A stretch of 64,000 nt of DNA from Rhodothermales bacterium (GTDB lineage: Bacteria; Bacteroidota; Rhodothermia; Rhodothermales; UBA10348). Shown here piece after piece: positions 50,207 to 55,415 of the stretch. The first letter of the stretch is position 1. Each line of letters starts with the position of its first letter. Below the pieces are notes generated by a model. It did not search any database and had not been told where the DNA came from. It saw nothing but the letters and a program-made list of their open reading frames with translations. The DNA is taken from assembly GCA_017643395.1 (NCBI GenBank), contig JAEPNP010000002.1, positions 350,290 through 414,289 on the forward strand, written 5' to 3'. The position numbers and the translations under genes were made by a program.

Positions 50207-50294
50207 TGGTGCCCAGGAGAGGACTCGAACCTCCACGTCCTAAACGGACACTAGAACCTGAATCTAGCGCGTCTACCAATTCCGCCACCTGGGC
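50207..50294 (-). tRNA. tRNA-Leu (anticodon CAG)
   Basis: Read on the minus strand, the acceptor stem GCCCAGG pairs with CCTGGGC, followed by discriminator A and an encoded CCA. The D arm region GGCGGAATTGGTAGACGC, the anticodon stem CTAGA/TCTAG with loop TTCAGGT (anticodon CAG), a long class II variable arm (TGTCCGTTTAGGACG), and the T arm GGAGGTTCGAGTCCTCT (its core GTTCGAGTC) are all visible. The long variable arm confirms a leucine-type tRNA. Confidence 0.96.
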
Positions 50295-50407: not shown

Positions 50408-50725
50408 TCACCCCACCAAATCCGCGGCGGTAATCCGCGCGGGATCCGATCCGCCGCCACCAAGCGGCAAACTGAACAGCGTGCGGCCGCCCTGGCGGAA
50501 GTTTCCGGTCGCGCCCGGCACGCCTTCTGCCTCCAGGCGCCCGGCAATCACACCACCTAGGCCGTGTATGACCTCAACGGAACCGCGTCCCCGCTGGACA
50601 GCCAGAGCCACCGCACGTCGCACAATCCGCATCGCCGCGTCCACCGTGCAGCCGTGCACATCGACGGTCAACACCGAGCCGTCATCCCGCACCGCCTGCG
50701 GCGCGTCCGGCGCACGCCGGGTCAT
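50408..50725 (-). CDS. Smr-domain protein
   Basis: This 105-residue protein is essentially one Smr domain, the module at the C-terminus of MutS2 that binds or cuts branched DNA or RNA. The family core is visible in VLTVDVHGCTVDAAMRIV (the DxHG motif) and RGSVEVIHGLGG (the HGxG motif). The C-terminal part (NFRQGGRTLFSLPLGGGG) is close to usual. It starts four bases before the CotH gene ends, on the same strand, so it is the last gene of the operon 55415-50408. Whether it is functionally linked to CotH or simply co-transcribed cannot be told. Confidence 0.85.
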   Translation of the reverse strand: MTRRAPDAPQAVRDDGSVLTVDVHGCTVDAAMRIVRRAVALAVQRGRGSVEVIHGLGGVIAGRLEAEGVPGATGNFRQGGRTLFSLPLGGGGSDPARITAADLVG

Positions 50726-52956
50726 CGCACCTTGACCACGGGCCGGACCTCCGTACCCACAACCACGAAATACACGCCGGGCGCGGCACCTCCGGAGTCC
50801 CAGGCCGTCTCGCCGCGGAATACCCGGCGTCCCAGCACATCGAACACCTCAAACGATCCGCTCACGTGCAGCCGCTCAGAAAACGGATTGGGGTAAACGG
50901 CGACATCCAACGGTACCGGGCCATCTTCCGCCGAATCGACGACGGCATTGGGCGCCCCTGGGCTCGGCGCCGCCAACACCGAGAACACCAGCCCTGCGTC
51001 CTCAGTCCGCCCCCAGGCCTGATCAGCCTCCAGGGCACCAAAGCTCACCTGATCAATCACATCTCCCGCCGCATCGTACAGTGCCACCGACTCCCCGTCC
51101 GCGTCGAGCCGAAACGGCGCGTGCAGCTCACCCTGCTCGGGCTGGCCGTCCATCCAGAGAACCAGGTAACCATTCTCGGGCACAAAGATGTCCGGTAGCG
51201 CCCACCGGTCCGGCACCGCGGGGTCGTCCGAAATCGTCAATCCGTTCAGGTGAAGGGGCACATCGGAGCCGTTGAAGAGCTCCAGCCAATCATCGAACTC
51301 CCCGGCATCATCCGCGAGCGTCGTCTCGTTGTTGGCCATGAGCTCGTTGATGTAGAGCGCAGGCCGGTTGGCCGTGACCCCGATGCGAAACAGGTCAGAC
51401 TCCCGCGTCAAGCCACCAGCGGACGCTGAGATCTGCAGGTCCACCGTGCCCGTTGCACCCAGCGGCGGAATGTCGGCCACCCAACGACCGCCGTCCAGGC
51501 GCATTGCCTGCTGATTGCGCTCGGGCTGATCCGGCCACCAGGACAGCGTCACCTGGGGCTCCGTGTCCGACTCCACCTGAACCGAAACGCGCAGCGGATC
51601 GCTGGGCCTTGGGTCCGAAGGCTCGATGCGCACATCCAGGATGAACGGTGCGAACGTGCCCGAATCGAGCTGCCCGAACGCCGTCGAATAGCGGGTCGAG
51701 ATGTACGGCTTCAGCCCGGCCGTCACGTGTGCACCAAGCGCCTGCGTAAAGCTGTTCTGGTAGGCCTGCACGTTCCAGCCGTAGTCGCGGGTGCGGAAGC
51801 TGTCGACCGCGGCCGCAGCCTCGGTCATCGTCTTCAGCCGGTCAATGTCCGCCTCCAGCGCGGACGGCAGAAAGTGGTCCGAAAGCAGCTCTCGCAGGTA
51901 GTACGTGTACAGCTCCCTGAACTCGGGCACGCCCAGGATGCGCTCGGTCAGCGGTCTCGGCTCACTCGGATGTCCCCACTCGTAGAGATCACGCGTGCTC
52001 CAGTCGATGCCCGACTGGATGCCGCCCCACCAGATCCCGAACGAGTTGTCCATGTCGAACGGGATGTAGTGCCAGCGTCCGGTCTCGGGACTGTTGTACA
52101 GGTAGAAGTTGTTCTTGAGATACCAGTACGTATCCCAGGACCCGGTGATGGCGGTCACCGCAAGCGCCTTCAGAAAACCCGGTACATCGAAGAGCTCCGA
52201 AATCGCACTGCGAAAAGCTGAATCGGACGTCGTGTTCAGCACGCTGATGAAACGGGCGATGTCCTCGTAGCCCTCCTCGTCGCTTTGCCCCTGGGTCAGG
52301 TCATAGGGACGCCGCTCGGCGCCGGCGGCTGGTCTGTAGGCACTGCCGTCCGAACCGCGAACTATCAAATCCGCAGGCCACAAACTCTTGTAGAGGTTGC
52401 CACCGTCGCCCCCGAAGTATCGCTGCAAAAACTGCTCGTCCACGTGCTCCACATTCATGTAGAGTCCGTAGTAGGCGCCGTTGATGTAGAGCTCGACGTG
52501 GTTGGCCCGGGATGCCGGCACTCCGACGTCGGCGAACAAATCCCACGACAGCTTGGAGCGCATGATGGACGGGTCATTGTGCTCCCCGTTCAGGTTCAGC
52601 TTCTCCAGCCCCTCCCACTTGCCGCCCCGGCGAAAGGTGTTGAAGGACACCTTGAATGACTTCTTCTGTGCATACCGCGAGGTATTGCCCCGAAGCCGAA
52701 AGCCAACCGAGTCCACCTCCGCCGTCAGATTCGGCGACGTCCACCGAAACGTGGCCAGGTGCTCCGTATCACTCTCCTCATTCCCCCTCCGAAACATCAA
52801 CGCCAGATTCCCCGGGTCCACCGTGATATCCACCCGCGGCAAGACCGAGTCATCAAACACCTGAGCCCCGGCCCCCGGCACCCAAAAAATCGGGAGCACC
52901 CCGACCAAAAACAGCACCACCGTGGTGCCGGCCCCCTTACAGCTCCTCATCATCAT
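50722..52956 (-). CDS. CotH kinase-family protein with lamin-tail and T9SS sorting domains
   Basis: CotH proteins are atypical secreted protein kinases (Bacillus CotH phosphorylates spore-coat proteins). The 744-residue precursor has a signal peptide (VVLFLVGVLPIFWVPGAGAQ). The kinase domain covers ~35-430: FKVSFNTFRRGGKWEGLEKL, LNLNGEHNDPSIMRSKLSWD truncated to its core L-N-G-x-x-x-D-P-S-x-M-R, ELYINGAYYGLYMNVEHVD, and the metal-binding PFDMDNSFG near residue 300. A lamin-tail domain follows (~540-650, LYINELMANNETTLADDAGE, WLELFNG), then a T9SS tail (YPNPFSERLHVSG, APGVYFVVV). Three ATGs in tandem (52956, 52953, 52950) lie inside the end of the DUF4956 gene (20-bp overlap). The tail predicts surface or extracellular location, away from its cytoplasmic partners. 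Confidence 0.93.
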   Translation of the reverse strand: MMMRSCKGAGTTVVLFLVGVLPIFWVPGAGAQVFDDSVLPRVDITVDPGNLALMFRRGNEESDTEHLATFRWTSPNLTAEVDSVGFRLRGNTSRYAQKKSFKVSFNTFRRGGKWEGLEKLNLNGEHNDPSIMRSKLSWDLFADVGVPASRANHVELYINGAYYGLYMNVEHVDEQFLQRYFGGDGGNLYKSLWPADLIVRGSDGSAYRPAAGAERRPYDLTQGQSDEEGYEDIARFISVLNTTSDSAFRSAISELFDVPGFLKALAVTAITGSWDTYWYLKNNFYLYNSPETGRWHYIPFDMDNSFGIWWGGIQSGIDWSTRDLYEWGHPSEPRPLTERILGVPEFRELYTYYLRELLSDHFLPSALEADIDRLKTMTEAAAAVDSFRTRDYGWNVQAYQNSFTQALGAHVTAGLKPYISTRYSTAFGQLDSGTFAPFILDVRIEPSDPRPSDPLRVSVQVESDTEPQVTLSWWPDQPERNQQAMRLDGGRWVADIPPLGATGTVDLQISASAGGLTRESDLFRIGVTANRPALYINELMANNETTLADDAGEFDDWLELFNGSDVPLHLNGLTISDDPAVPDRWALPDIFVPENGYLVLWMDGQPEQGELHAPFRLDADGESVALYDAAGDVIDQVSFGALEADQAWGRTEDAGLVFSVLAAPSPGAPNAVVDSAEDGPVPLDVAVYPNPFSERLHVSGSFEVFDVLGRRVFRGETAWDSGGAAPGVYFVVVGTEVRPVVKVR

Positions 52957-53617
52957 AGTAGAGGCTGACCCGACTTACCCGGTCCGTCTTCCTGAGCTCC
53001 GACACCAACTCCCCTGCCTGCATCGATCGTTTTAGCCGCACGTGCAGCGTGATGGCCAAATCATCGCGTTCCAGGGGCTGCCGCACGCTCAGCACCGACG
53101 AATTGCGGCAGTAGCGATCGATGACCGCCTGGTACGTGGGCACGTCCGGCGCCCCATCGGCCTCGTATCCAAATTCCAGCAGCATCGCGTTGCGCTGAAC
53201 GGTCCCGAATCCGAAGCCGGTGGTGGCCAGCACGGTCAGGCCGATCACGGCCGTGCCGATCCATGAAATGAGGTACATGCCGACGCCCGCCGCCAGGCCA
53301 ACCGCCAGGGCAAAAAAGATGAAAACGATGTCGTGTGTGTCCTTTACCGCCGTTCGAAAACGGATGATGGACATGGCGCCCACCAGGCCGAATGCGCGTG
53401 CCAGGTTCGAGCCGATCACCAGCATCACGAGCGCCGTGATCATCGGCAGAACGATCATCGACCGCACAAACGAAGGCGCATAGCTGGTGCCGCGATACGT
53501 CCACCGATAGATGGAGGCAATGATCACTCCGCACAGCAAGGCCACAATCAGGCTGCCCAGCGCATCGCCCGCACTGGCCCCCGTGGGCGTGGTCAGTTGT
53601 TGCAGTTCCTGGAGCAT
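52937..53617 (-). CDS. DUF4956 membrane protein
   Basis: This 226-residue inner-membrane protein matches DUF4956. It has four likely helices in the first ~150 residues (SLIVALLCGVIIASIYRWTY, FVRSMIVLPMITALVMLVIG, IVFIFFALAVGLAAGVGMYL, AVIGLTVLATTGFGFG) with the family-typical conserved loop NLARAFGLVGAMSIIRFRTAVKDTHD (core GAMSIIRFRT). The C-terminal ~70 residues are a soluble domain (VRQPLERDDLAITLHVRLKR). It overlaps the VTC gene by one base and the CotH gene by 20 bases. DUF4956 is known to co-occur with VTC-domain proteins and CotH; its function is not established. A transport or membrane-platform role is inference. Confidence 0.92.
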   Translation of the reverse strand: MLQELQQLTTPTGASAGDALGSLIVALLCGVIIASIYRWTYRGTSYAPSFVRSMIVLPMITALVMLVIGSNLARAFGLVGAMSIIRFRTAVKDTHDIVFIFFALAVGLAAGVGMYLISWIGTAVIGLTVLATTGFGFGTVQRNAMLLEFGYEADGAPDVPTYQAVIDRYCRNSSVLSVRQPLERDDLAITLHVRLKRSMQAGELVSELRKTDRVSRVSLYYDDEEL

Positions 53618-54375
53618 CAGAATGAGGTCTGCAGCAGGCCGGGGCGCAGCTGTCGCCCACCGGCAAAAGAGGCTCGCCGGCCATGTGTGGCACGAGCACA
53701 GGCGTCAAGCGTCATCACATACTTGGAGAGCGCCCGACGCTGAGCCCCGAGCCGGGCCAGCTCCGGCCGCAGCCATCCGGGAAAATGATGATCGAACTTG
53801 ACCTCGAGAATGAAATGGCGACTCAGAACCGGCACCGGCGCTTCCGCGCCCAACCGGGAGAGTCGGGACGTGAACCGTCCCCGCAGACCGGTGTCGAAGG
53901 TCACACGAAGCGTCGGATCGTGCAGGCCGACAAACGGCTCGCGCTCGTAGGCCACGAGCACGGCCGGCTTGAGCGAACGCCGAAGCACGAAATACCGGAA
54001 CGTGTTGGCCGCATCGACATCGTCAGTCTCCGGAAGATCGCGCAGGCCGGTCAGCCAGTCTTCGGCTTCGCCCAGCGGCATGCGTGCCTTGCGCTTCCAG
54101 GCGGTCGAACTCTCCTTGCGCTTGAGTTCGAGAGTAACCGTGTCAGCCGGAAGGATGGTATTGTACCCCCGGACGCGCACCTTCATACGCCGCCGCTCTC
54201 CTTCCTTCTTGGCGCGATACATGGCGCCCCGAGAGGTATCGAAGTACACGCTGCGCACGGTGTAGCGCCCATCGTCACGAGCATTGAGATCCCGCCCTGT
54301 GTGCCAGGCCACGTACTGGCGCAGGCTGTCCAGTGCTTCGAGTGGAATCAGGTATTTCAGTTCGTGCCGCATCAC
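53617..54375 (-). CDS. VTC-domain protein (polyphosphate polymerase-like)
   Basis: VTC domains of yeast Vtc4 make polyphosphate from ATP inside a tunnel lined by basic residues. This 252-residue protein is a single VTC domain. Residues that match the tunnel pattern are K7 (HELKYLIP), R41 (TVRSVYFDT), R63/K65/R67/R69 (RRRMKVRVRGY), E83/K85 (TLELKRK), E191/K193 (LEVKFD) and K218 (SKYVMTLD). All are charged and in the expected order, so the enzyme may be active; the equivalences are from memory of the fungal enzyme. No membrane helix or SPX domain is present. It overlaps the HlyD-like gene by four bases and DUF4956 by one base. A triphosphatase-type activity of the same fold is an alternative. 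Confidence 0.92.
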   Translation of the reverse strand: MMRHELKYLIPLEALDSLRQYVAWHTGRDLNARDDGRYTVRSVYFDTSRGAMYRAKKEGERRRMKVRVRGYNTILPADTVTLELKRKESSTAWKRKARMPLGEAEDWLTGLRDLPETDDVDAANTFRYFVLRRSLKPAVLVAYEREPFVGLHDPTLRVTFDTGLRGRFTSRLSRLGAEAPVPVLSRHFILEVKFDHHFPGWLRPELARLGAQRRALSKYVMTLDACARATHGRRASFAGGRQLRPGLLQTSF

Positions 54376-55415
54376 GCTCTCCCCACGAGCAGCCCACGAA
54401 GGACGTCCAGAAACCAGTCCCGGAGCAGCACGGGTTCCGAGGCGATCTGCAGCTCCATGACAGCTCCGGCCGGGCCTGTTCCGGAGGTCAGACAGGTCGC
54501 CGCTCGCACACCCTCGGCCTCGAGGGTCGGCTCGACATGAACCACGCGACAGACTGCGCCGTCCGGCAGGAGCAGTTCCTGATCACGTGCCACGGTGGCG
54601 TCTGCGGGGAGTGCCATGAGAGCCACGTAGTGTTCCAGGTCGGCTACGGTCACCAATACCGAATCTCGGGCCGACCGCACGACCGTACCCCGGATGGGGC
54701 TCACCACGACCTGCGCCGCGCGCCGCGCCCCGAGTGCCAGCGCGTTGCGTCGGGCCTCGTCCACCCGGGCCAGCGCCAGACGACGCTCCGTCGGGCGGGC
54801 GCCCGATTGCAGCACTTCCAGCTCCGCTTCCTGAACCGCCACCTCACCTTCCAGCGCCACGACCTCGGCCCGCGCGCGCTCCAGCTCATCCAGCGAGACT
54901 ACTCCGGACCCCTGCAGCGTTTCCAGTCGGCTTACGATGCCGGTCTGCAATCCAAGCAGGGCCCGGGTCTGGGCGATGCGCCCTTCGGCAGCCCGCACGA
55001 GCTCCGCTTTGGCTCCCTCGGAAAAAGTGGCGGCCTCTGCCACCAGGACGTTGGTCAGGCCTTCCAGAGCCTCCGCCTGCCGGGAAAGTTCCGCCGAGCG
55101 CATGAGACCGAGCGTATCGCCCGCTTCCACGGCGCTGCCAAGCGCAAGCCCGTCCCGAAGCCGAAATCCCGCGGCGTCGCCGCGATCTACCGAGCGCACC
55201 TCATAGCTCCGCGTCACGCCCGCGGCCCGATCCCGATGGATCCCGATCAATTCACCCCGGCCACTGTGCTCCAGGGTCCACTCTGCGGCCGGCAAGAGCA
55301 CGGCCGGCGCGGTCCCTCCTGAGGTCACCGTTATCGGGACCAGAAGAAGCACCAGGGTGGCTATCAAGCCGACCGCGAGTGCGGCCAGCGAGGCATATCG
55401 AAGCTTGGGGTCCAA
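54372..55415 (-). CDS. HlyD-like membrane fusion protein
   Basis: This 347-residue protein has one N-terminal membrane helix (~8-30, AALAVGLIATLVLLLVPITV), a first half-lipoyl segment (DGLALGSAVEAGDTLGLMRS), a long alpha-helical coiled coil (~115-235, rich in A/E/L/R), and a second lipoyl half (VVSPIRGTVVRSARDSVLV) followed by a beta-barrel-like end. This is the layout of periplasmic adaptor proteins that bridge inner-membrane transporters to an outer-membrane channel. No ABC transporter, RND pump or TolC-like gene accompanies it; the only membrane partner in the operon is DUF4956. It is the first gene of the operon, 82 bp downstream of the MscS gene. Confidence 0.85.
   Translation of the reverse strand: MDPKLRYASLAALAVGLIATLVLLLVPITVTSGGTAPAVLLPAAEWTLEHSGRGELIGIHRDRAAGVTRSYEVRSVDRGDAAGFRLRDGLALGSAVEAGDTLGLMRSAELSRQAEALEGLTNVLVAEAATFSEGAKAELVRAAEGRIAQTRALLGLQTGIVSRLETLQGSGVVSLDELERARAEVVALEGEVAVQEAELEVLQSGARPTERRLALARVDEARRNALALGARRAAQVVVSPIRGTVVRSARDSVLVTVADLEHYVALMALPADATVARDQELLLPDGAVCRVVHVEPTLEAEGVRAATCLTSGTGPAGAVMELQIASEPVLLRDWFLDVLRGLLVGRA

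Follow-up and report, generated by a model that had tools for sequence, protein, structure and literature searches.

The window, a stretch of 64,000 nucleotides from a member of the Rhodothermales (NCBI GenBank assembly GCA_017643395.1, contig JAEPNP010000002.1, positions 350,290 to 414,289), carries on its minus strand an operon of five overlapping genes, three of which, encoding a HlyD-like adaptor, a VTC-domain protein and a DUF4956 membrane protein, form a unit that is conserved in related genomes. The operon opens with the gene for a HlyD/MacA-type periplasmic adaptor (54372..55415; its TTG start is uncertain), continues with those for a VTC-domain, polyphosphate-polymerase-like protein predicted to be cytosolic (53617..54372; PF09359, 114 bits) and a DUF4956 inner-membrane protein (52937..53617; PF16316, 53.9 bits), and closes with genes for an exported CotH kinase-family protein and an Smr-domain protein. 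The HlyD/VTC and VTC/DUF4956 junctions both read TGATG, the DUF4956 and CotH genes overlap by 20 nucleotides, and the CotH and Smr genes meet at ATGA in a 4-nucleotide overlap. All open reading frames and junctions were found where an original prediction, made from the letters of the DNA alone, had placed them; the VTC gene was likewise confirmed, with its start moved to an ATG from the GTG at 54375, one codon upstream, that had been proposed. Pfam matches to VTC (cut-off 23), DUF4956, CotH, LTD and Smr are all above the curated cut-offs.

The conserved HlyD-VTC-DUF4956 trio

Related loci were gathered by scanning a DUF4956 alignment, seeded with sequences from HlyD-linked loci, against about 85,000 species genomes and taking the best 80 of 390 matches; genes on the same strand and no more than 2.5 kb from DUF4956 were then counted in 76 non-duplicate loci with profiles built for the purpose. 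HlyD and VTC both stand beside DUF4956 in 70/76 of these loci, and the arrangement is therefore far beyond chance. The usual order is HlyD-VTC-DUF4956, with a gap between HlyD and VTC of mostly 0–12 nucleotides (60 clean trios), and it recurs in about ten lineages of the Fibrobacterota-Chlorobiota-Bacteroidota (FCB) superphylum, including Rhodothermales, Bacteroidales, Saprospiraceae, Neomarinimicrobiota, Kryptonia and Calditrichia, as well as Latescibacterota, Ignavibacteria, KSB1, Zixiibacteriota, Krumholzibacteriota and Eisenbacteria. Two of the six loci outside the pattern (L032 and L040) begin at a contig end. Inspection of VTC neighbourhoods also revealed the contiguous trio in several families of the window's order. 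The expectation that the linkage would hold in related genomes was borne out for these three genes, and the architecture of a three-gene unit is well supported; the five-gene system originally proposed did not survive, CotH being optional and Smr incidental.

The same association is seen across whole genomes. In a sample of 296 genomes from the window's phylum (47 VTC-positive, 249 VTC-negative), DUF4956 is present in 47/47 VTC-positive genomes. Strong matches to the HlyD subfamily (profile score >110 bits) number 23, of which 22 lie next to VTC and the remaining one (G214) next to DUF4956, without VTC. The window genome has a single strong member, at 407.8 bits, the next-best HlyD scoring 31.8. 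This HlyD subfamily is a dedicated partner of the VTC/DUF4956 setting. VTC is single-copy in the window genome, and a scan of viral contigs for VTC gave no match.

Properties of the three proteins

The HlyD-like protein has no Pfam match and only a weak NCBIfam match to HlyD (1e-6), and its family profile matches MacA. The AlphaFold2 (AF2) model (mean predicted local distance difference test, pLDDT, 90.7) has an N-terminal transmembrane helix, the two halves of a barrel-sandwich (lipoyl) domain, a long alpha-hairpin and a beta-barrel, and retrieves MacA, MexA, AcrA and EmrA in Foldseek at about 1e-10 to 1e-9. At the tip of the hairpin lies the TolC-docking RLS motif, RxxxLxxxxxxS (R163, L167, S174); among 44 sequences, R163 is found in 44/44, L167 in 37/44, and serine (26) or alanine (12) at position 174 in 38/44. 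MacA, AcrA and HlyD contact TolC through this motif, in which alanine can partly replace the serine (PMC3391258). Family profile and predicted model together settle the protein as a MacA-type adaptor. None of the five operon genes encodes an inner-membrane transporter of the ATP-binding cassette (ABC), resistance-nodulation-division (RND) or major facilitator superfamily (MFS) type; the claim of an adaptor without a pump thus stands, for a real and dedicated adaptor whose operon holds VTC and DUF4956 instead of a transporter.

The VTC profile aligns with the Vtc4 structure 3g3q (E 8e-21), and nine residues are invariant in 30 bacterial VTC sequences (K6, R66, R68, K84, K93, R144, R156, E190 and K217). 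We take the catalytic tunnel residues of Vtc4 to be K200, R264, R266, K281, K294, R361, R373, E426 and K458; a literature search gave no paper listing them, and their numbering is consistent, a single constant offset (185) in 3g3q placing these residues on the invariant VTC positions. The tunnel described as apparently intact in the original prediction is intact by this list, every mapped residue aligning with an invariant one, and the protein is likely, to judge from its sequence, to synthesise polyphosphate.

DUF4956 is modelled by AF2 (pLDDT 86.6) with about four transmembrane helices and a C-terminal ferredoxin/ACT-like domain. A conserved arginine-containing helix (RAFGLVGAMSIIRFRTAVKD) is predicted in the membrane region and bears the invariant residues R74, R86 and R88; an arginine-lined path of this kind would suit a polyanion. 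By Foldseek the C-terminal domain resembles that of MgtC (2lqj), and weak MgtC profile matches to DUF4956 agree with this likeness of fold.

Proposed polyanion export and alternative readings

Outer-membrane partners accompany DUF4956 in several lineages. A gene for a TolC-family outer-membrane efflux protein (OEP) lies 3′ of DUF4956 in a trio (L081), on a putative Hymenobacter plasmid (L116) and in L133, the last two without VTC; in putatively Balneolaceae-like genomes such as L125, also without VTC, such a gene follows DUF4956-HlyD. VTC-positive loci sharing the family code of L125 (f18) have VTC-DUF4956 and then a divergent HlyD (L124, L127, L128), one of them with CotH upstream. A sequence search of the PDB with a putative Balneolaceae OEP returned nothing useful. 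A separate Bacteroidota clade of DUF4956 pairs VTC-DUF4956 with the outer-membrane barrel DUF2490; the DUF4956-DUF2490 pair BT3498-BT3499 of Bacteroides thetaiotaomicron is in a table of iron-dependent expression (PMC10434189). Five Gram-positive loci (L117–L121) have VTC-DUF4956, some with CotH, and no HlyD, and their DUF4956 belongs to the same large clade as that of the window. This switching of partners fits a need of diderms to cross the outer membrane, the Gram-positive sample being small. The window genome encodes four TolC-family (OEP) proteins, and the only one whose gene adjoins neither pump nor adaptor (G000:C1:1123887-1125149; L148:4861-6336) is a candidate outer-membrane partner of the trio.

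The trio has affinities with several known systems. Like MacAB-TolC and HlyBD-TolC it has a MacA-like adaptor with the RLS motif and, in several relatives, a TolC-family gene; unlike them it has no ABC, RND or MFS transporter, and DUF4956 occupies that place. The abstract of one account names no inner-membrane components of tripartite systems other than ABC, RND and MFS (PMC8277102). With the yeast VTC complex the trio shares the tunnel domain, in which every catalytic residue that was mapped is kept, and a small transmembrane partner protein, and the coupling of a polymerase to membrane passage serves as a working analogy; DUF4956, however, has no detectable relation to Vtc1, and the bacterial set, known here from sequence, lacks an SPX domain and adds a periplasmic adaptor. 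In streptococci, clostridia and bifidobacteria, genes for CotH, a polyphosphate polymerase, DUF4956 and DUF4832 are contiguous with Pel genes, with no function given for the set in the available part of the report (PMC7112168), so that VTC, DUF4956 and CotH as a set had already been reported. The same three families thus adjoin in that Pel accessory cluster; the accessory genes that this part of the report names do not include HlyD (PMC7112168). In NELoc-2 of Clostridium perfringens, genes for VTC, a 222–226-aa membrane protein labelled tubulin/FtsZ, and CotH are adjacent (PMC2879425), and the membrane protein is probably DUF4956; a Planococcus plasmid (L121) has VTC, DUF4956, CotH and a HEAT protein in similar style. 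NELoc-2 differs from the window operon in being Gram-positive and in having no adaptor listed (PMC2879425). In the literature searched, mainly that which is freely accessible, we found no report linking HlyD or TolC to VTC/DUF4956/CotH, nor a published function for DUF4956 or for the VTC-domain proteins of bacteria; the links with HlyD and with TolC appear to be undescribed.

The reading to which we give a probability of about one half is that the trio works much like a tripartite system but without a pump: it would synthesise polyphosphate, or a similar polyanion, and export it, and CotH would be one of the exported clients. At the cytosolic face VTC would polymerise phosphate from ATP; DUF4956, in the place of an ABC, RND or MFS pump, would carry the polyanion across the inner membrane; and the HlyD/MacA-like adaptor, given its fold and docking motif, would provide the periplasmic path and dock a TolC-type outer-membrane factor, which would be encoded elsewhere, there being no TolC gene in the window operon. 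The polymer would then act at the cell surface; exported proteins whose genes lie close by, mostly CotH, may use or work with it there, as their association with the trio suggests. Export by way of DUF4956, HlyD and an outer-membrane factor is plausible and is the best single reading; the identity of the substrate and the direction of transport are what we infer from the parts. A dedicated TolC-docking adaptor in the operon would give bacterial VTC and DUF4956 a concrete, testable role, the export of a polymer across the envelope, and with it a testable job for the bacterial relatives of the yeast polyphosphate-making enzyme.

Several observations weigh against this reading. DUF4956/HlyD/OEP loci without VTC exist (L116, L123, L125, L126, L133), and the conduit may therefore carry something else; they also rule out the view that without VTC there is no system, VTC not being indispensable. 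VTC-DUF4956 stands without a nearby HlyD in L066, L067 and L079, where upstream sequence is present. No TolC gene lies in the window operon, and the window genome also encodes PPK1. A PDB fold search with DUF4956 matched only its C-terminal ACT-like domain and left the transmembrane domain unmatched. The figure of 70/76 reflects the HlyD-linked seed and the best 80 of 390 matches on which it rests.

Two other functions can be drawn from the same parts. The trio could be a regulatory device without transport: VTC would bind or sense a nucleotide or polyphosphate, the MgtC-like DUF4956 would relay the signal, and HlyD would serve as anchor or gate for a process at the surface, polysaccharide production for example. 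The weak MgtC similarity of DUF4956 and its ACT-like domain, whose fold is common in ligand sensing, speak for such a device, as do the occurrence of VTC/DUF4956/CotH in Pel loci, where CotH has been proposed to act in regulation (PMC7112168), and a locus (L027) with VTC, a CotH-like protein and DUF4956 beside a polysaccharide deacetylase; it is nonetheless unlikely, since mere binding need not demand a full catalytic tunnel that is invariant in 30 VTC sequences, and the repeated pairing with TolC, HlyD or DUF2490 argues for passage across the envelope. Alternatively, the persistence of HlyD and DUF4956 in DUF4956/HlyD/OEP loci without VTC, and the glycoside hydrolases and type IX secretion system (T9SS) cargo that often adjoin, would agree with type I-like export, again without a pump, of a protein, a glycan or a small phosphorylated compound, to which VTC is an energy or regulatory add-on. 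We consider such an exporter doubtful, as VTC is kept in most trio loci with its gene between HlyD and DUF4956, and the signal peptides or T9SS tails of the neighbours make such a route needless. That the five genes are compacted neighbours without joint function is very improbable: Smr does differ from one genome to the next, as does CotH in many loci, but the trio is intact over about ten lineages and its HlyD subfamily is confined to the trio setting, so that chance compaction is largely refuted for HlyD-VTC-DUF4956 and likely for Smr.

CotH and other neighbours

CotH (50722..52956; PF08757, 231 bits; lamin-tail domain, LTD, 44 bits) is a recurrent but optional neighbour and a looser partner of the trio. 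It is found in 46/47 VTC-positive versus 60/249 VTC-negative genomes (Fisher 4e-23, a p-value that, like those of all such tests here, overstates significance because the 296 genomes share ancestry and are not independent) and in 66/73 DUF4956-positive versus 40/223 DUF4956-negative genomes. Counted by eye, CotH lies within about 5 kb of at least 13/54 VTC genes; a place as an obligate part is ruled out, only 21/76 loci having CotH within 8 kb and 40/223 DUF4956-negative genomes carrying it. The window genome has a second CotH. Sorting of the window CotH by T9SS, as originally proposed, is plausible: the translocon protein SprA is encoded in the genome, but the tail (YPNPF...), typical in look, falls below both cut-offs (Pfam, 19.2 versus 27; TIGR04183, 20.3 versus 23).

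For CotH kinases that work outside the cytoplasm, no supply of ATP is evident. The catalytic Asp residues of the CotH family, D228 and presumably D251, are retained in the window CotH, whose WD and PFDMD motifs align with 5jd9. Of these, D228 is essential, D228Q being inactive, and where CotH obtains its ATP is an unanswered question (PMC7821199). It is speculative that exported polyphosphate could be the phosphoryl donor for CotH, and the fuller proposal, that HlyD-VTC-DUF4956(-TolC) represents a tripartite machine of a new class, which has no pump and both makes polyphosphate and threads it through the whole envelope as a donor for extracytoplasmic CotH kinases, seems to us improbable.

At the DUF4956/CotH junction, a terminator-like hairpin (52912-52930) is followed by TTTTTGG on the coding strand and might possibly attenuate cotH; such hairpins number 8 in the region versus 3.6 expected. 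The Smr-domain protein (50408..50725, minus strand; PF01713, 30 bits) is ruled out as a part of the system, no homologue having turned up next to the trio in those related loci that were searched. The cluster is bounded downstream by a minus-strand tRNA-Leu(CAG) gene (50207..50294; ARAGORN), and its flanks hold MscS, the tRNA and an open reading frame judged by eye to be sulfatase-like. No Pel genes were recognised adjoining the operon, no search having been aimed at them.

Besides CotH, the exported proteins that adjoin VTC/DUF4956 loci include glycoside hydrolases (GH16 and others) and arylsulfotransferase-like proteins; genes for the latter, with T9SS tails, lie beside or near VTC/DUF4956 in unrelated lineages (L066:644-2179, L079:2529-4085, L142:2727-4391). 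Multihaem cytochromes and a Cthe_2159 protein are further exported neighbours. Two multihaem cytochrome genes with MtrC-like domains stand upstream of HlyD-VTC-DUF4956 on the same strand (L016:3517-8347), and a Cthe_2159-family (carbohydrate-binding) protein is encoded directly upstream of another trio (L015:5576-7375). In a genome related to the window's order (L027:10257-16650), VTC, CotH-like, DUF4956 and polysaccharide deacetylase genes follow in a row, much as in the Pel accessory cluster. Genes for DUF4956 proteins of about 185 aa, without VTC, lie tail to tail with a gene for a PPDK_N (ATP-binding) protein of about 625 aa (L131:6207-8667, L132:4555-6990, L143, L144, L145, L146); this partner has a signal-peptide-like start, occurs without CotH in 5/6 genomes and may be a further exported phosphotransferase linked with DUF4956.

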